A stretch of 11,801 nt of DNA from Thermoplasmata archaeon. GTDB taxonomy: Archaea; Thermoplasmatota; Thermoplasmata; Thermoplasmatales; Thermoplasmataceae. A program made the position numbers and the translations under genes. Below, in pieces: positions 3,365-11,801 of the stretch (position 1 is its first letter; every line of letters begins with the position of its first letter). The DNA lies in assembly GCA_021811525.1 (NCBI GenBank), contig JAJZOK010000119.1, forward strand, positions 1 to 11,801, in the 5' to 3' direction. The notes beneath the pieces are model-generated. The model had not been told where the DNA came from and did no database searches. It saw nothing but the letters and a program-made list of their open reading frames with translations.

Positions 3365-3934
3365 ATGGCTGAAAGAAGTTCTGCACCGACAAAGAAACAG
3401 TTAGATTTTATAGACAAACTGAGAAGCGCATCCCCAGAACGTGAGGAAGTAGTCTTCAAATTCCTTGATTCTAAGGAAAAGGGAAGCATAAGCGAACTTT
3501 CTGTTCCCGAAACCTCTGAACTTATAGACCGGCTTAAGGCGATAAAAGTAGAGGGCGAAAATATTTCTGCAGGATTTGCAACAGGCAAGCAGATAAGCTT
3601 CCTGACAAATCTTCAGGACACTGAAGAGAGAAGAAATGCTGCGAGGGAGTATCTTCACAAACTGGGAAAGACCTCGGTGAACGAACTTGCCATCAACGAA
3701 GCCTCTGAACTTATTGACTCCCTTATGAAAATGCCCAGGGGAGATAGGCTAGACGCATCTGAGCTGGCTCCAACCTCAAAGCAGCTTAAGTTCATACAGA
3801 GTTTACAGAAGTCCCCCAATGGAACCGGGACAATAAGTTCTTACCTTAAGAAACTCAGAAAGGGGCAGCTGGAAGAACTCACCAGGAAGGAAGCCAGCGA
3901 ACTGATAGAAATGCTCAAAAGCTCATCCCAGTAA
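3365..3934 (+). CDS. Protein of three tandem DUF3072-like helical modules, function unknown
   Basis: This 189-residue, charged, soluble protein has no signal peptide or membrane helix. It consists of three copies of one module, at about residues 8-60, 72-123 and 136-186. Each begins with a helix of pattern T.KQ..FI..L (PTKKQLDFIDKL, ATGKQISFLTNL, PTSKQLKFIQSL) and ends with (E/K)(A/T)SELI..L (ETSELIDRL, EASELIDSL, EASELIEML). The KQ pairs lie at 11-12, 75-76 and 139-140, an exact 64-residue period. This start-and-end pattern resembles the small DUF3072 domain, usually found once per protein in bacteria and often appended to other domains. I do not know its function. The ATG at 3365 has a GAGAGG purine stretch 11 bases upstream, and the first repeat starts directly after it. 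The gene is flanked by the M20 and FAS1 genes without clear operon coupling. Assignment to DUF3072 is pattern recognition only. Confidence 0.85.
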   Translation: MAERSSAPTKKQLDFIDKLRSASPEREEVVFKFLDSKEKGSISELSVPETSELIDRLKAIKVEGENISAGFATGKQISFLTNLQDTEERRNAAREYLHKLGKTSVNELAINEASELIDSLMKMPRGDRLDASELAPTSKQLKFIQSLQKSPNGTGTISSYLKKLRKGQLEELTRKEASELIEMLKSSSQ

Positions 3935-4492: not shown

Positions 4493-5239
4493 TTAAAGTC
4501 CTATTCCGCCGTCCACAACCAGCGTATGGCCAGTAATGAAGGTGTTTTCAGGATTTAGGAGAAAAGCCACTGCCCTGCCAATGTCTTCGGGCTCACCCCA
4601 TCTTTTCATTGGCGTCGCTTTCTTAATCTTGCTGCTGAATGATTCATTTTCCCATCCCTCACGGTTCATGTCAGTCCTGACATATCCCGGTGCAATAGCA
4701 TTCACCCTTATTCTGGGAGCCAGTTCCTTGGCGAGCCCCCTGGTCAGGTGGATTAATGCGGCCTTTGAAGCCTGGTAACCATGGGCCCAAGGATCTGCCC
4801 TGAATCCATAAACAGATGAAATATTCACGATGGAACCGCCATCAACTATGGTTTTATTCAGGTTTCTTGCAAGGTAGAATGGAGCCGAAAGGTTGAGGCC
4901 AATAATCTTCTCCCAATCCTCATCCTTGATCTCATCAAGGGTTGTTCCCTGATATATTCCGGCATTATTTACGAGTGCAAAGAGCCTTATTCCCCTTTCC
5001 AGCAGCTTTCCAGTGAATGCTTCGATCTGCGATCTTGAGGTAAGGTCAACCTGGATTGGCTCTGAATTGGCTCCAATCGCCGAAATTTCAGCAGTAGCCC
5101 GTTCAGCTTCCTTCCGGTCTGAATTGAAGGTAAAGATAATGTCGTAACCTTTCGCGGCCAGTTCCAGAGATATGGCCTTTCCAATACCCCTGCTTCCCCC
5201 AGTAACCAGCACAGTCTTATTGCTTGAAATATCTGACAT
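4493..5239 (-). CDS. Short-chain dehydrogenase/reductase (FabG-like, classical SDR)
   Basis: This is a 248-residue soluble NAD(P)-dependent oxidoreductase of the classical SDR family, related to 3-oxoacyl-ACP reductase. Visible motifs are the cofactor loop TGGSRGIG (13-20), NNAG (91-94), a catalytic Ser in ISS (141-142), the YQASK catalytic pair Y155/K159, and APGYVRTD (183-190) after the active site. The NSDR segment (39-42) after strand 2 has a basic residue where NADPH-preferring FabG proteins do. The C-terminus FITGHTLVVDGG is typical. As archaea lack a standard ACP fatty-acid pathway, the substrate is probably another ketone or alcohol; sugar, lipid or quinone-like substrates are all possible. 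It follows the peroxiredoxin gene by 27 bases. It may be cotranscribed, but a TATA-like element overlapping that gene's stop codon fits its own leaderless start. Confidence 0.9.
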   Translation of the reverse strand: MSDISSNKTVLVTGGSRGIGKAISLELAAKGYDIIFTFNSDRKEAERATAEISAIGANSEPIQVDLTSRSQIEAFTGKLLERGIRLFALVNNAGIYQGTTLDEIKDEDWEKIIGLNLSAPFYLARNLNKTIVDGGSIVNISSVYGFRADPWAHGYQASKAALIHLTRGLAKELAPRIRVNAIAPGYVRTDMNREGWENESFSSKIKKATPMKRWGEPEDIGRAVAFLLNPENTFITGHTLVVDGGIGL

Positions 5240-5778: not shown

Positions 5779-5915
5779 TTGATTTTGGCCCTTGAATAAT
5801 GGATTCGGCTATGCGAACTGGCCCGCTTCCCTTGACAGGGTTGCATCATGGCTAAAATTTGCAGCAAAACCCCATGAGGAATAAGACGGATATGTGCCGT
5901 GGAGATGGATAATTG

Positions 5916-6575
5916 ATGATATCGAAGGAAATGGTTGAATCCATTGGGATATCTTACCCAGAAAAATTCCACATGAATCTAATGGAGGAGCCTTTTCCAT
6001 GGTTCCTGCTTTCTTTACTATTTGGAGCCCGGATACCTGAATCCATCGCTGTGCGCACATTCTACATGTTCAAAAGTGAAGGACTCCTTACACCTGAATC
6101 CCTTATAAAACGCGGTTGGGAAAGCCTTGTTGTGCTACTGGATTCAGGAGGATACACAAGGTATGACTTCAAAACTGCAACAAAGCTGATAGAGGCCTCT
6201 AAAAACATAATTTCGGTAGGCTCACTCAATAAAATCCATGAATCCTCCTCTGAAGTAGATCTGCCCAATAACCTGAGATCGCTGGCAAAAGGTATTGGAG
6301 ACGTCACAATAGGCATTTTCCTGCGTGAAATGATCGGTATCTGGAATAAGGCCAAGCCGCTTCCAACTCCTCTGGTTAGGGCAACAGCCAGTATGCTTGC
6401 AATAGATCCTGTTTTACTTGCCTCAGCGTTAGGAGTACGTTATGGGTTAATGGAATCCTTCCTTGTCAATGTTGGAAGGAGGTGTTTCAGGTCAAGTTGC
6501 AGGAAATGCATCTTTCCTGACCAGCGCCAAGAATATCTCAAGGAGAGCAAGAATCCGCTGTTGCAGCGCCGATAA
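5916..6575 (+). CDS. Endonuclease III-like HhH-GPD superfamily protein with degenerate active site
   Basis: This soluble protein of about 219 residues resembles DNA glycosylases of the endonuclease III (HhH-GPD) superfamily. Numbered from the ATG at 5916, PFPWFLLSLLFGAR (26-39) matches the first core helix and GYTRYDFKTATKLIEA (79-94) the middle helices. KGIGDVTIGIFL (125-136) is at the helix-hairpin-helix. The catalytic Lys expected in the hairpin (GRKTA in Nth) is replaced by DVT, and the Asp of VDTH is replaced by a PTPL segment (150-153). Near the C-terminus only three cysteines (190, 195, 198; spacing C-x4-C-x2-C) remain of the four-Cys iron-sulfur loop. It may bind DNA without cutting, or use other residues. 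An in-frame stop at 5910-5912 limits the start to TTG 5913, ATG 5916 or ATG 5931. GGAG (5901-5904) is 8 or 11 bases from the first two. Family assignment is by pattern only. Confidence 0.75.
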   Translation: MISKEMVESIGISYPEKFHMNLMEEPFPWFLLSLLFGARIPESIAVRTFYMFKSEGLLTPESLIKRGWESLVVLLDSGGYTRYDFKTATKLIEASKNIISVGSLNKIHESSSEVDLPNNLRSLAKGIGDVTIGIFLREMIGIWNKAKPLPTPLVRATASMLAIDPVLLASALGVRYGLMESFLVNVGRRCFRSSCRKCIFPDQRQEYLKESKNPLLQRR

Positions 6576-6712: not shown

Positions 6713-7126
6713 TTAATCTGGGTTCTTGGCGTTTTCCAGTTCAGCCCACTTCTTTTCAAGCTGAGCCTTGAGGTTGGTAGTCTTCGCACTCTTGTCCTCT
6801 TTCCTGCGCAATTCCTCAGGTGACCTCAGCCCACTCCCAACATCGTACCTGAAATTGATGATTGAAGATTTAGTGGTCTTGTACCTGTTTGAAAGCTCGG
6901 CAATTCTTGAATCCACCGAACTCAGAACGTGTTTCATGACTCCATATTCAAGGGAATCCTGCAGGGCCCTTCTAATGACATCAAGTGCTGATTCATTTTC
7001 CTGGCGAAGAAGGTTTATTGCTGAAAGCTCTTCGAGACCTAGGGTTATGCTGACCTCTTCAAGGTCTTCAAGTTCCTCCGGGTCTTCCGGTTTCGGTTCA
7101 GTTTTTTTCCCTTTATTTGAAACCAT
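6713..7126 (-). CDS. Small probable ribbon-helix-helix protein next to the actin gene (ParR-like candidate)
   Basis: This protein has 137 residues from ATG 7126, or 140 from ATG 7135. The N-terminal 25 residues are charged and probably disordered (EPKPEDPEELEDLEE). EVSITLGLEELSAINLL followed by ALDVIRRALQDSLEYG (about 24-62) has the pattern of a ribbon-helix-helix: an alternating strand V-S-I-T-L, helix, short turn, helix. The rest is helical, with a strongly charged C-terminal tail (about 105-137). Such proteins bind DNA as dimers, and the ParR adaptors of plasmid segregation have this fold. The gene lies directly downstream of the actin gene on the same strand, as parR follows parM. I do not recognise the family by name, and the ribbon-helix-helix call is inference. 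AAGGA lies 8 bases before ATG 7126 and overlaps the alternative ATG. A TATA box at 7171-7180 gives it its own promoter. Confidence 0.75.
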   Translation of the reverse strand: MVSNKGKKTEPKPEDPEELEDLEEVSITLGLEELSAINLLRQENESALDVIRRALQDSLEYGVMKHVLSSVDSRIAELSNRYKTTKSSIINFRYDVGSGLRSPEELRRKEDKSAKTTNLKAQLEKKWAELENAKNPD

Positions 7127-7170
7127 GATTTTCATCCTTAATTATCCAAAGGATGATTTCGATTAGTCTT

Positions 7171-7180
7171 CGATATAAAT
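7171..7180 (-). promoter_or_regulatory. TATA box for the ribbon-helix-helix gene
   Basis: ATTTATATCG on the minus strand is a near-consensus archaeal TATA box. Transcription would start near 7149-7150, leaving a leader of roughly 14-23 bases that holds the AAGGA motif. It lies only about 24 bases downstream of the 11-bp inverted repeat. Confidence 0.55.
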
Positions 7181-7203
7181 AGTTTCAGGCTAAAAGAAAG
7201 TGA

Positions 7204-7232
7204 CAAGTAGATCACTTACTTTGATCTACTTG
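7204..7232 (-). terminator. 11-bp perfect inverted repeat across the actin gene stop codon: terminator or operator
   Basis: The arms CAAGTAGATCA and TGATCTACTTG are exactly complementary, with a 7-base spacer. The TAA stop of the actin gene (7216-7218) lies in the loop. On the minus strand the hairpin is followed by the T-rich CACTTTCTTTTA, so it could act as a bacterial-style terminator. Because it also lies just upstream of the TATA box of the ribbon-helix-helix gene, it could equally be an operator or segregation site for that protein. The repeat is certain; its role is not. Confidence 0.6.
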
Positions 7233-8193
7233 CTGCATCCCTATAGCCCAGAGCATTGGCAAACTGCACATCTTCTGATGGTATCTTAATCATTGCGCCC
7301 GGGGCGAGAGATTCCAGTTTGTGCCCAATAAGGCTTGATCCTCCACCAACAGGTATGAGTGCAGTTATCCTGTCAAGCTCTTCCCTGAGGTTTTCCCTGA
7401 GTTTGTCAAGGATCCTTGAGGCAAGGTTGTTAAGTATTGGCTCTGAAACTGACGGGCCGCCTACCTCTCTCTGCTTGAATACAACGGTCTGGGAGATAGC
7501 TTCCCTTGCTATATCAGTCGGAACGATGAATCCCGTTTCCTTGGCAATTGCCTTGCCTATTCCGGATACAACATCTCCTACGCCAGCCTGTATGCTGAAG
7601 GACATTCCTACAACAGGCTCCATGTTCTTGAGATTGACTGTTAGGACATCAGTCGTCCTGGATCCGATATCAATTACCACGCCATATCCGTACTGCGTTT
7701 TTATGAGTCCCTGGTCAAGAAGGAACAGTGCTGCCCCCACGCCCTGTGGCCTCATTACTAGTTTTGAAATCTTGAACTTCCTGACTTCTCCGGAAGCGGC
7801 TTTCAGCGATATTTCCTTGCCCTCCAGAAATTCCTTTGCAGCGGCAACTTCGTGCTCGAATGTACCCAGAGGCGTTCCGCTGCCTATTGTCAATTCAGTT
7901 AAAGCTCCATCCGTGCCCGCACCGCTTACCCAGAGGGCACCGGCCAGCAACGGAAGTGAATCAGGATCTGAAAGCCTGCCATCTCCCTGTGGTTCCCTTA
8001 CGCTTGCTCCTGTGGCATCCTCACCAAAGAAGAAGGGCTCTCCATCGTCTATTGAAAGAACTGTTGTTGTTCCTCCGAATCCCCAGCCTTTTGTTTCTGT
8101 AGGGGCCCACCTGGATGGGAACTTCTCTCTCTTTCCATCGGCTCCTATGACTTTTGTGTCTCCGTATCCCAAGTCAACTCCTATTGTTATCAA
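7216..8193 (-). CDS. Archaeal actin-like ATPase, Ta0583/ParM type
   Basis: This 325-residue cytosolic ATPase of the actin/ParM fold is close in sequence and length to Thermoplasma acidophilum Ta0583, whose structure is known and ParM-like. Phosphate loop 1 is GVDLGYGDTK (5-14), phosphate loop 2 is VVIDIGSRTTDVL (172-184), and the adenosine motif is PVGGGSSLIG (281-290). Conserved segments SRWAPTET, PQGDGRL, IGSGTPLGTF and MRPQGVGAAL match Ta0583 as I remember it. It probably forms ATP-dependent filaments; the cellular cargo is unknown. The start is TTG at 8193, because an in-frame TGA lies three codons upstream, GGTGA sits 6 bases ahead of the TTG, and the first actin strand begins right there (MITIGVDLG). 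It is divergent from prpD and followed on the same strand by the ribbon-helix-helix gene. Confidence 0.93.
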   Translation of the reverse strand: MITIGVDLGYGDTKVIGADGKREKFPSRWAPTETKGWGFGGTTTVLSIDDGEPFFFGEDATGASVREPQGDGRLSDPDSLPLLAGALWVSGAGTDGALTELTIGSGTPLGTFEHEVAAAKEFLEGKEISLKAASGEVRKFKISKLVMRPQGVGAALFLLDQGLIKTQYGYGVVIDIGSRTTDVLTVNLKNMEPVVGMSFSIQAGVGDVVSGIGKAIAKETGFIVPTDIAREAISQTVVFKQREVGGPSVSEPILNNLASRILDKLRENLREELDRITALIPVGGGSSLIGHKLESLAPGAMIKIPSEDVQFANALGYRDAASRSK

Positions 8194-8524
8194 ATATCCT
8201 CACCTTTTCCATAATCCCGGAACCATAACATGGGGTAGTAACAAACATGGACGTTCTGGGGCTGTTTCCTAGATTTCCCATAATGCCATAGTTAGCTAAT
8301 TGCAGTGCCATGCTACTCTGTTCCAAGCTACCTTCAATTGTCAAATACGCACTTAAATGTTTGCATCGTCATCATGAAAGTTCGCTTTTGGTTTGTTGCG
8401 TGTTTTCTAAGTTCCATATAAAATATATACCTTAGGTTCACTTTTTGCCTTTTTTTGTACTGTTTTATCTGCAGATGAAGTAACTGCTGCGTATCTATAA
8501 TATATTTTTCCGTTATTACAAGAC
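8194..8524. promoter_or_regulatory. Divergent intergenic region between actin-like gene and prpD
   Basis: These 331 bases hold no convincing gene. Near the actin gene are four short TTATGG-like motifs on the minus strand (8209-8215, 8223-8229, 8278-8284, and CTATGG at 8286-8291) and a Shine-Dalgarno-like AAGGTGAGG. An AT-rich stretch at 8412-8430 could be a TATA box in either direction, and another (CTTAAATG) lies near 8352-8359. A pyrimidine-rich tract runs from about 8441 to 8468. The promoter of prpD is at 8494-8504. The actin promoter cannot be fixed. Confidence 0.5.
8494..8504 (+). promoter_or_regulatory. TATA box of the prp operon
   Basis: TCTATAATATA is centred about 26 bases before the ATG at 8525. 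No Shine-Dalgarno is present, so prpD is probably translated from a leaderless mRNA. Confidence 0.6.
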
Positions 8525-9859
8525 ATGGACAAAATTGTAAACCAGCTTTATGAGCATGCTTCAGAAGTTGGCTCCAAAGGGCTCGACTCTACAGTTCTTG
8601 ACGAAATTAAGAAGAGAATTGCAGATTCCATCATCACTTCCTATGGGGCCAGGAATGCCCCGCCTGTTGCAATCGAAAAACGTGCACTCCTACCGTCCTC
8701 TGGCAAGCACAATTCTCCAGTATATTTCACTGGCAGGGAGGCTTCTGTAGACCTTGCCACATTCATGAACGGCTCGATGACGAGATACCTTGATTACAAT
8801 GACACTTACCTCTCAAAAGAGGCCCTGCACCCATCTGACAATGTCCCTCCAATATTATCAATGGCTTTTGCAAAAGATCTCTCCGGAATGGACGCAGCCA
8901 AGGCTGTAACAGTAGCTTACGATGTTGTTGGGGCGCTCTCAGATGCGGTTTCAATAAGGGATAGGGGATGGGATCATGTCACATATATATCAATTTCATC
9001 TGCAGCAGGCCTTGGACTCCTGTTAGATTTCGACTATTCCAAGTATGAGAACCTTATCAATCTAGCAATCAATAATAACATAAGTTTGAGGCAGACTAGA
9101 GCAGGCGAGCTCAGTATGTGGAAGGGCTGCACTGCTTCTGATGCCAGCAGGAATTCAGTTTTTGCGGCGCTTCTAGCAATGGAGGGGTTCACGGGCCCAT
9201 CGCCGATATTCACTGGGGAAATGGGATTTTTCAAACAGGTGTCTGGAGAATTTGCTCTTGACCTGAAACCTGGAAAGGTCCTCAGGACCATGATCAAGAA
9301 TTTTCCTGTTGAATATCATGCAATGAGTGCTGCGGAAGTCGCGCTTAACCTCAGGAACAAACTTGAGGGAAAGATAGAGAAGGTTGAGGTTGAAACTTTC
9401 GAAGTTGCCCATAAGATAATCATAAAGGATCCTGAGAAGCTTAGGCCAAAGACCAGGGAAACTGCAGACCACAGTATGCCATATATTGTTGCATACACTT
9501 TGAAGAATGGGGCCCCTAACCCGAATTCATATGATGAAGCCTATCTGAAAGACCCAGAGATCCTTAGGATTGTCGATGTATCGAGCTACAAGGTTACACA
9601 GAAGTTCAATGAAATGTATCCAGAGAACCTTCCAGTTAAAATCAAAGTTACCACCGACAAAGGAGTACTTGAGGAGGAAATGGATGTTCCTAAGGGTCAT
9701 TTCAAGAAACCATACACTTGGGAGGACCTTGAGAACAAGGGGAAAGCTGTGATGGGTGAAACCAACGCAAAGATACTTGTGGAGTTTGTCAGGAATTTTG
9801 AAAAGCGGAGTGTAAGGGAACTCTTCGAGGTGATTTCCGATGTCAATTTTAAAGGATAA
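8525..9859 (+). CDS. prpD: 2-methylcitrate dehydratase, MmgE/PrpD family
   Basis: This 444-residue cytosolic enzyme dehydrates 2-methylcitrate to 2-methyl-cis-aconitate in propionate oxidation. The N-terminal all-helical domain carries LDYNDTY (89-95) and HPSDN (102-106), both characteristic of MmgE/PrpD proteins. KGCTASDASRN is at 200-210, ETADHSMPYIVA at 312-323, and HFKKPYTWEDLENKGKAV lies in the C-terminal region. PrpD does not use an iron-sulfur cluster, unlike aconitase-type AcnD. Length is slightly shorter than the roughly 480 residues of bacterial PrpD, which is usual for the shorter MmgE-like branch. It opens the prp operon from a leaderless start, and its last 20 bases overlap prpB, with the prpB Shine-Dalgarno inside its coding sequence. 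Related family members act on other hydroxy-acids, but the neighbours support the methylcitrate role. Confidence 0.93.
   Translation: MDKIVNQLYEHASEVGSKGLDSTVLDEIKKRIADSIITSYGARNAPPVAIEKRALLPSSGKHNSPVYFTGREASVDLATFMNGSMTRYLDYNDTYLSKEALHPSDNVPPILSMAFAKDLSGMDAAKAVTVAYDVVGALSDAVSIRDRGWDHVTYISISSAAGLGLLLDFDYSKYENLINLAINNNISLRQTRAGELSMWKGCTASDASRNSVFAALLAMEGFTGPSPIFTGEMGFFKQVSGEFALDLKPGKVLRTMIKNFPVEYHAMSAAEVALNLRNKLEGKIEKVEVETFEVAHKIIIKDPEKLRPKTRETADHSMPYIVAYTLKNGAPNPNSYDEAYLKDPEILRIVDVSSYKVTQKFNEMYPENLPVKIKVTTDKGVLEEEMDVPKGHFKKPYTWEDLENKGKAVMGETNAKILVEFVRNFEKRSVRELFEVISDVNFKG
9827..9834 (+). promoter_or_regulatory. Strong Shine-Dalgarno of prpB inside prpD
   Basis: GAGGTGAT matches eight bases of the complement of the archaeal 16S rRNA 3' end and lies 5 bases before the prpB ATG at 9840. 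It settles that start and indicates translation from within the operon mRNA. Confidence 0.7.
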
Positions 9860-10724
9860 TGTAAACCAGGGACCAGGGAAACTACGAGAACTCCTGAAGA
9901 CAGAATTCGTGGCTGCCCCTGGAGTCTTCAACGGGATTACTGCCCTTCTTGCTGAAAGGGCAGGATTCAAGGCAACATACCTTTCAGGGTCAGGGGTGGC
10001 TGGGGCAATGGGTCTCCCGGATCTTTCTGTAACGACCTCAAGCGAAGTGGCAGAGGAGATCAGGAGAATCACTTTGGTAAGCAAACTCCCCCTTATTGTG
10101 GATGCTGACACAGGCTTTGGAGAGCCCATAAACGTAACTAGGACAGTTAGGCTCTTTGAAAGTTCGGGAGCATCGGCGATGCACCTTGAGGATCAGGTCT
10201 TGCCAAAGAGATGCGGCCACCTTAACGGTAAGAAGATTGTTGAAAGGGAGGAAATGACCAGGAAAATAAGGGTCGCAGCGGATACTAGGAAGAACCCGGA
10301 TTTCATGATAATTGCCAGGACCGACGCACGGGCAGTAAACGGCATTGAGGATGCCATAGAAAGGGCCAATCTTTATGTGGAGTCAGGAGCGGACATGATT
10401 TTCACGGAGGCACCAGAATCTGAAGACGAATTCAGGAAATTCCGGAAGGGCGTAAAAGGCCCGCTTCTCGCCAACATGACAGAATTCGGCAAGGGACCAC
10501 TCCTGTCTATTGAGGAACTCCTGAAGATCGGTTACAACGCTGTGATTTTCCCTTTGACCGCATTCAGGGTCTCCCTTAAGGCAATGGAGCAGACCTATTC
10601 CCACATCATGGCTGCGGGAACCCAGAGGGACTACATAGACAATCTGATGACCAGGGCGGACTTTTATGAAGTGATAGGTTATAACCAGTATGAGATTGAA
10701 GATGCGGAACTTTCCCGCAGATAG
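9840..10724 (+). CDS. prpB: Methylisocitrate lyase (PrpB), isocitrate lyase/PEP mutase superfamily
   Basis: This 294-residue cytosolic lyase splits 2-methylisocitrate into pyruvate and succinate, the last step of the methylcitrate cycle. It is a TIM barrel. FNGITALLAERAGF (30-43) and YLSGSGVAG (47-55) open the fold, VDADTGFG (87-94) supplies Mg-binding Asp residues, and MHLEDQVLPKRCGHL (114-128) contains the catalytic Cys (C125) in KRCGH, a variant of the usual KKCGH. IIARTDAR and the TEAPES segment line the remaining pocket. Length equals bacterial PrpB (about 295), much shorter than true isocitrate lyases. It overlaps the end of prpD by 20 bases and is followed by prpC after 11 bases, so translation is probably coupled. 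A related carboxyphosphonoenolpyruvate mutase function is excluded mainly by context. Confidence 0.95.
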   Translation: MSILKDNVNQGPGKLRELLKTEFVAAPGVFNGITALLAERAGFKATYLSGSGVAGAMGLPDLSVTTSSEVAEEIRRITLVSKLPLIVDADTGFGEPINVTRTVRLFESSGASAMHLEDQVLPKRCGHLNGKKIVEREEMTRKIRVAADTRKNPDFMIIARTDARAVNGIEDAIERANLYVESGADMIFTEAPESEDEFRKFRKGVKGPLLANMTEFGKGPLLSIEELLKIGYNAVIFPLTAFRVSLKAMEQTYSHIMAAGTQRDYIDNLMTRADFYEVIGYNQYEIEDAELSRR

Positions 10725-10735
10725 GGTGAATTATA

Positions 10736-11801
10736 ATGACAGATGAAATCACGGTTCCAAAGGGACTCGTTAATGTTATTGTGGACAAGACAGCCATAGC
10801 AACCACTGACAATAGTGGTAACCTCCTTTACAGGGGCTACAGGGCAGTCGACCTTGTAGAAAAGAAGAGCTTTGAGGATGCAGCCTACCTTATTGTTTAT
10901 GGGAAACTGCCTGGCCAGAGGGAGAGGGAAGAATTTATTGGAAAACTAAGAAGCAACTTTGGCGTTGATGAAAACGCCAGGGAAGTCATTTCAATCCTGA
11001 AGGAAAAGGACCTTATGAGGTCCCTAAGAAGCATTGTCTCATTTTACCCTTATAAACACACAGAGCCTGATGACCTAATGATTGAGATGGCTGCCAAATT
11101 CCCGGAATTCATCTCACTTTCATATCGGCTTGCCCATGGGCTGGAATCACTCAAACCAATCGAGGGCACCTACGCTGAGCGCTTCTATCACCTGATTACC
11201 GGTAAAAGTGACCCCCAGAAGGCGAAGTACCTCGGGATTCTGATGATACTTTACATGGAACATGAATTCAATGCTTCCACCTTTGCCCTCAGGGTTACCG
11301 CTTCAACACTCGCTGATCCGATTTCATCATTCACAACGGCACTTGCAACACTAAAGGGACCTTTGCACGGTGGGGCAAACGCTGAGATTCTTGATTTCTT
11401 CAAGAATTTCAAGAGCACAGATGAAGCCGTAAAGTATGTTGATGAACAGGTGGCAAAAGGGGAGAAAGTAATGGGTTTTGGCCACAGGATATACAAGAGG
11501 CTTGATCCTAGGGCCCAGTTCGTGAAAGCGAAACTGAAGGAGATAGCTCCAGACTCAAGAATTCTTCAAATAGCGGAAGCTGTTGAAAATAGAATGTGGG
11601 AGAAAAAGAGTGTCCCTGCGAACCTTGATTTCTATGCTGCAATCTACATGGATATCCTTGGTATCCCACAGGACTTTTACACTCCTCTTTTTGCCGCGTC
11701 CAGAGTATTCGGATGGGTGGCACACTACAAGGAACAACTCGCAGACAACAGGATCATAAGGCCGTCTTCAAAATATGTCGGTCCTTTTGACCTGAAACTA
11801 T
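10736..11801 (+). CDS. prpC: 2-methylcitrate synthase / citrate synthase, 3' truncated by window edge
   Basis: The 355 visible codons encode a cytosolic citrate-synthase-family enzyme joining propionyl-CoA (or acetyl-CoA) to oxaloacetate. The catalytic triad is visible: H211 in GPLHGGAN, H250 in MGFGHRIYK, and D298 in NLDFYAA. The oxaloacetate-binding Arg lies in FGHRIYKR, and the CoA-binding C-terminal segment includes RVFGWVAHYKEQ. The sequence has reached IIRPSSKYVGP, normally within about 10-30 residues of the end, so only a short tail is missing. ATG 10736 has GGTGA 6 bases upstream (10725-10729) and follows the prpB stop by 11 bases. The operon position argues for 2-methylcitrate synthase, but archaeal enzymes of this family often use both acyl-CoAs, and it might also be the organism's TCA-cycle citrate synthase. 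Confidence 0.92.
   Translation, partial: MTDEITVPKGLVNVIVDKTAIATTDNSGNLLYRGYRAVDLVEKKSFEDAAYLIVYGKLPGQREREEFIGKLRSNFGVDENAREVISILKEKDLMRSLRSIVSFYPYKHTEPDDLMIEMAAKFPEFISLSYRLAHGLESLKPIEGTYAERFYHLITGKSDPQKAKYLGILMILYMEHEFNASTFALRVTASTLADPISSFTTALATLKGPLHGGANAEILDFFKNFKSTDEAVKYVDEQVAKGEKVMGFGHRIYKRLDPRAQFVKAKLKEIAPDSRILQIAEAVENRMWEKKSVPANLDFYAAIYMDILGIPQDFYTPLFAASRVFGWVAHYKEQLADNRIIRPSSKYVGPFDLKL

Follow-up and report, generated by a model that had tools for sequence, protein, structure and literature searches.

The 11,801-nt stretch analyzed here (the window) derives from a Thermoplasmata archaeon of the Thermoplasmataceae (assembly GCA_021811525.1, contig JAJZOK010000119.1) and lies on contig C26 of a genome that comprises 1.73 Mb in 81 contigs. 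Its minus strand encodes a Ta0583-type, ParM-like actin of 325 aa (7216..8193), as assigned from sequence and domain matches, followed on the same strand by a small protein of 140 aa (6713..7135), to which we refer as the partner. We examined whether the two genes form a ParM/ParR-like pair, as the original prediction had proposed from the letters of the window.

The actin gene and its downstream partner

The actin gene begins with a TTG codon, and inspection revealed a GGTGA ribosome-binding-like sequence immediately 5' of this start. Residues 1-324 match the structure of Ta0583 from Thermoplasma acidophilum (2fsj; E=1.9e-133), and Pfam recognizes the ALP_N and MreB-like_C domains. This full-length match and domain content identify the window actin, at the level of sequence, as the Ta0583 orthologue that had been predicted. 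The protein is also matched by phrog_691 'partition protein' (E=7.1e-39) and by pCBH ParM (E=1.1e-10), with NCBIfam ParM and PRTRC_D matches lying far below their cut-offs, which suggests that it is a ParM-like actin of the kind found in ParMRC systems, with predicted ATPase activity. A crystal structure and data on filaments have been described for Ta0583, which is placed among ParM/MreB branches with a suggestion of horizontal transfer (PMC2651865). Another paper mentions it in the context of segregation and names no partner (PMC10354927). The passages on Ta0583, which do not extend to the 2006 structure paper and the biochemistry paper, name no partner for it and give no established function.

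As had been described from the letters, the actin is followed by a small open reading frame (ORF) on one strand with it, which starts 80 bp past the actin stop codon. The start of the partner is likely its fourth codon (M4, window 7126), which would yield a protein of 137 aa, because the column of M4 is invariant in 47 aligned homologues. No Pfam family matched the partner at E<=1. A single search of a protein collection retrieved 70 proteins at E<=1, including the query itself, of which the weakest had E=7.6e-27, and a profile built from 12 partner sequences found 83 homologues; no relatives were found in viral contigs or plasmids. T. acidophilum itself carries the partner, a protein of 102 aa annotated as 'hypothetical membrane protein'. 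The main text of a chromatin paper on this organism (PMC7325993) contains neither Ta0582 nor Ta0584, possible tags of the partner. Partner dN/dS was 0.056, 0.047 and 0.058 in three pairs from the window's genus (dS 1.2-1.6) and 0.044 and 0.030 in two Thermoplasma pairs, values that are rough because dS exceeds 1 throughout; in three further pairs, partner dS was saturated. Across the same five pairs, actin dN/dS was 0.005-0.035. These values indicate that purifying selection acts on the partner gene, which evolves faster than the actin. An inverted repeat, CAAGTAGATCA / TGATCTACTTG, spans the actin stop codon (7204..7232) and is followed on the coding strand by T-rich DNA, features of a possible terminator that would separate the actin and partner transcripts. 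By inspection, some relatives show paired changes in this repeat.

In a class-wide survey of 300 genomes, the actin was present in 28, every one of which belongs to a single family (f1). A survey of 77 genomes of this family detected the actin in 37 and the partner in 29, after the two pieces of the G300 partner match had been merged. A match in G133 (E=0.0035, an 80-aa frame, no actin) was discarded as chance, and weak class-wide partner matches outside actin loci (E 0.004-0.1) lie outside the counts. The actin was found in 28 of the 29 partner-bearing genomes, and the pair is kept in 28 of the 37 actin genomes; in the remaining partner genome, G317, the partner sits at a contig end, on the side where an actin would be expected. 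Because G178 (clone ASS_A1) has two actins and two partners, 29 copies located on one contig with an actin could be scored, and all 29 lie directly downstream on the same strand, which is the position of the small gene beside parM in ParMRC systems. The distance between the matched stretches ranges from 10 to 132 bp, as measured from match edges rather than gene edges. We conclude that the pairing far exceeds what chance would produce, that it is a genuine and specific association found widely across the family, and that the partner is confined to actin-bearing genomes. The adjacency on which the original prediction depended is therefore retained in most genomes that encode the actin. In G178, the pairs L051 and L059 are diverged from each other, and each has its own partner type.

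The surroundings of the partner-bearing actins, compared among 24 loci, form six largely different gene sets: a prp cluster (genera g1, g14 and g15, locus L069 and Thermogymnomonas), each of the two ASS_A1 copies, Thermoplasma, g6 and E-plasma. Some genes, namely a short-chain-dehydrogenase family (F1) and the pair F10/F11, are shared by more than one set, and in each of the six the partner follows the actin. The actin is intact in every partner-bearing genome except G320 (Thermogymnomonas), in which neighboring genes are also split, which suggests sequencing errors. Intact actins that lack a partner occur in seven genomes of the Ferroplasma/Acidiplasma group (G034, G052, G116 and G182 of genus g3; G170, G186 and G228 of g12). 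Two more g3 genomes of the Ferroplasma group, G089 (L058) and G103 (L057/L060), have decayed actins and no partner, and no actin match was obtained in the g3 genomes G153 (99% complete), G307, G308 and G309 (80-91% complete), which indicates that in g3, a genus devoid of the partner, actin genes are frequently decayed or absent. At four g3 loci (L046, L047, L049 and L057), including one with a decayed actin, a 213-aa gene occupies the place of the partner behind the actin; it may represent another partner or a chance neighbor. An antisense ORF overlaps the partner in L061, L065, L085 and L088.

Partner anatomy and a candidate docking site on actin

Partner proteins range from 102 to 237 aa across loci, and alignments of 19 and 24 rows share an N-terminal core, a linker that varies from short to more than 100 residues, and a short segment at the C-terminus. 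The window partner has an acidic N-terminal tail, a ribbon-helix-helix (RHH)-like core (residues 26-64; 6944..7060, minus strand), a long helix, the variable linker and a C-terminal helix. Within the core, a presumed strand at approximately residues 26-32 is followed by a modeled helix (34-43) and a second helix that begins at residue 50. This layout agrees with the prediction of an RHH at residues 24-62 between an acidic N-terminus and a charged tail, but that prediction had overlooked a conserved motif in the tail, LKxxLExxW. The motif occupies residues 122-130 (6746..6772, minus strand) within a modeled helix (116-137), and we propose that it forms an actin-binding tail. All 83 homologues contain the pattern [LMFI]K..[LM]E..W among their final 45 residues, compared with 6 of 16,600 shuffled tails, a count that gauges conservation rather than independent events because the homologues are related. 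E-plasma-type partners, which fall outside the 83, keep LE..W and lack the K. Among 23 Thermoplasmatales rows, partner residues E63, E127 and W130 are invariant.

The C-terminus of the actin differs between lineages with and without a partner. The sequence LGYxDAAxR is present in 28 of 28 aligned rows from partner-bearing loci, and in Thermogymnomonas as read from its DNA; all seven partnerless actins encode I or L at position 319 and lack R323. The DAAxR segment (D319 to R323; 7225..7239, minus strand) is thus invariant in aligned actins that have the partner and absent from both partnerless lineages. In trees constructed after four near-identical actin rows were removed, the partnerless actins form two lineages, a result that was also obtained without the C-terminal columns (approximately unbiased test, p=0.037 against one clade), and Acidiplasma rows fall in both. 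Of 66 clade pairs, two reach a count of two such columns, namely the partnerless pair (319 and 323) and one further pair (125 and 201); seven pairs show a single column and 57 show none. From general actin architecture, we take the DAAxR segment to lie beside a hydrophobic groove. The D319/R323 segment is a candidate, nominated from alignments, for the docking site of the partner tail. There is precedent for such a contact: the ParR tail binds a hydrophobic pocket of ParM (PMC5016525), and arcadin-2, which depolymerizes crenactin filaments, binds the groove of crenactin through a C-terminal peptide that contains a tryptophan (PMC5173319).

DNA elements and neighboring genes

A palindrome, CATCCTT-N9-AAGGATG (7133..7155), is located at the presumed transcription start of the partner and represents a candidate operator. 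A TATA element, presumed to belong to a separate promoter of the partner, lies 18 nt before the palindrome (7174..7179, minus strand), with assignment and distance determined by inspection. In nine aligned loci from the window's genus and g14, the inner bases of both palindrome arms are invariant and the spacer is variable (N6 instead of N9 in L082); the TTAT of the TATA element is invariant in these loci as well. With exact arms and a spacer of 3-12, the palindrome occurs at one place in its own genome. In L066 and L067 the arms, by inspection, pair only via G-U, which makes it possible that a hairpin in the mRNA covers the ribosome-binding site, but the fixed distance between palindrome and TATA element favors an operator. 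None of the g15, g92, Thermoplasma, E-plasma or g6 loci examined showed the palindrome, and the 14-bp gap between actin and partner in Thermoplasma is too small to contain it, which indicates that the palindrome is lineage-specific. Upstream of the actin, no recurrent palindrome was observed in the Thermoplasma, E-plasma, g6 and g15 loci. A second palindrome match with at most two mismatches lies at 4921-4943, within a short-chain dehydrogenase-like gene (0.09 expected in the window).

The region upstream of the actin, which is divergent from prpD (8194..8524), was searched for parC-like iterons, and none were found. The parC search covered the surroundings of the loci. In nine Thermoplasmatales actin upstream regions, repeats reached two copies at most; L053 (15 nt, 80%) and L083 (11 nt, 91%) each show a pair of copies side by side. 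As a control, 10-nt arrays were recovered upstream of the actin in two of four bacterial loci (L090 and L091). Short arrays inside the partner gene of the window, far from the pair in L061 and L083 and just past the partner in L085 were rejected because none is a phased 10-nt array, as were AT-rich short runs upstream of the partnerless actins L080 and L077.

Divergent from the actin, a gene for an MmgE/PrpD protein is followed by ORFs that, by inspection, are PrpB-like and citrate-synthase-like (8525-11800, plus strand), likely a 2-methylcitrate cluster, which is kept beside the actin in several genera. On the other side of the pair, a 220-aa ORF (5913-6575, plus strand) matched no Pfam family at E<=1, and no relative of it was found among the ORFs at 23 related loci; by eye, it contains a stretch that resembles helix-hairpin-helix glycosylases, KGIGDVTIGIFLRE, and cysteines at its C-terminal end. 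A 189-aa protein (3365-3934, plus strand) has repeated helical-looking segments, and its family matches are all sub-threshold.

A ParM/ParR-like reading of the pair and its rivals

Based on the strict pairing and the two conserved C-termini, we read the locus as a chromosomal archaeal ParM/ParR-like module in which the partner's tail contacts the actin and its RHH contacts DNA, a reading for which belief and doubt are about evenly balanced. In such a module, the partner would form an RHH dimer, joined via linkers of variable length to C-terminal helices. The LKxxLExxW helix would dock on the actin close to DAAxR and to the hydrophobic groove in which ParR and arcadin-2 bind, and would thereby capture or regulate filament ends. 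The RHH dimer would bind DNA, in the window's genus at least at the promoter palindrome, and could in this way link the chromosome to filaments of Ta0583. Partner dimerization, binding of the tail to actin, binding of DNA, DNA as cargo and a role in segregation are each inferred.

Several known systems share parts of this anatomy. The chromosomal ParM and cParR of Desulfitobacterium and Clostridium (PMC12270681) likewise combine a chromosomal actin with a divergent neighbor predicted to contain an RHH; those systems are bacterial, and the one from Clostridium is reported to include a parC, whereas the present pair is archaeal, family-wide, without iterons in the searched range and marked by the conserved LKxxLExxW tail. 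In the pSK41 ParMRC system (PMC4911067), ParM is reported to be structurally closest to Ta0583, and ParR binds parC through its N-terminal part and has an essential C-terminus, which resembles the predicted layout of the partner. That system differs in being plasmid-borne and in having 10-bp parC repeats directly upstream of parM, of which none were found here. Crenactin and arcadin-2 (PMC5173319) also constitute an archaeal actin and a cluster-encoded partner that binds via a C-terminal tryptophan helix, but crenactin belongs to a different actin group and arcadin-2 depolymerizes it; we draw this likeness from that paper's description alone. The nearest relatives of the actin found outside the family are ParM-like (26-27% for Sulfobacillus plasmids, 28% for L091 and 24% for L092 and L090), and in three of four, namely the Sulfobacillus plasmid, L091 and L092, inspection showed that the actin is followed by a small RHH-like protein, which fits an origin from a mobile-element ParMR.

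A number of results weigh against the ParM/ParR-like reading. The seven intact actins without a partner show that the pairing is not universal, and the two lineages they form are few; gene transfer could complicate the pattern at positions 319 and 323. Upstream of the actin, 20 Thermoplasmatales loci contain no phased iteron array, and the tandem repeats of a parC are absent within the range searched. With anatomy like that of ParM/ParR and this feature failing, we do not file the pair as a member of ParMRC, and its best label is an archaeal chromosomal ParM/ParR-like pair. The fold also remains a source of doubt. No RHH or ParR family model in Pfam, NCBIfam or PHROGs reaches its cut-off for the partner; the matches are weak and mutually inconsistent, and the sole RHH_1 match is to L069 (E=0.59). 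Searches of PDB sequences with the partner protein or profile returned no recognizable RHH, full-length hhalign comparison with bacterial ParR alignments was not significant, and Foldseek gave no useful match with the partner. The core profile, when cut out at bounds that we chose, did align with RHH_1 (P=1.2e-4) in strand-helix-helix register from end to end, a signal that arose only with this cut; its score stems mostly from one helix, and a rotation control was unfavorable to RHH. For the Thermoplasma orthologue, the structural match list, in which all matches are weak, is headed by toxin-antitoxin chains, which we take to be RHH proteins. An adaptor of another fold, such as a coiled coil, with its tail on actin and its core on something other than DNA, would explain the lack of a passing family model, the low to modest confidence of the monomer structure models and their very long second helix (50-93), but it leaves the end-to-end register and the toxin-antitoxin matches unaccounted for, and we consider it improbable. 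The core is, on the strength of profiles and models, quite probably an RHH fold, supported but unproven.

The remaining alternatives accept an RHH-like core and assign it a smaller role. If the partner acted in the manner of arcadin-2, its tail would sequester, cap or depolymerize the actin, and the RHH would only dimerize and repress its own gene, with no DNA cargo. Both arcadin-2, which is encoded in the cluster of its actin and acts on the crenactin groove (PMC5173319), and one bacterial chromosomal ParR that acts as a depolymerizer (PMC12270681) provide precedents. The lack of iterons in the searched range suits this possibility, as does the presence, in g14 and the window's genus, of a separate partner promoter with one palindrome. 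The partner is closer to ParR in anatomy and gene order, and RHH-like proteins adjoin three of the four bacterial actin relatives, such that we regard an arcadin-2-like regulator as somewhat unlikely. We also know of no RHH in arcadin-2. A partner that merely regulates transcription of the locus, with no contact to actin, would agree with the RHH-like core and with the palindrome at its promoter. Such a protein would leave unexplained both the C-terminal motif, conserved behind linkers of very different length, and the parallel change at the C-terminus of the actin, and the palindrome was seen in only part of the family, which makes this alternative highly improbable.

Taken together, the ParM/ParR-like reading allows a broader proposal, which we advance only tentatively and regard as rather doubtful, that Ta0583 and its RHH partner hold or move the chromosome in these wall-less acidophilic archaea, as a segregation motor that was acquired from a mobile element, became fixed on the chromosome and operates with dispersed or single RHH sites in place of a parC array. 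The role of Ta0583 is now testable with two small proteins, as T. acidophilum encodes a dedicated partner with a predicted DNA-binding core and a candidate actin-binding motif, and its actin has a candidate docking site. If DNA is the cargo, actin-driven DNA movement would extend to archaeal chromosomes.
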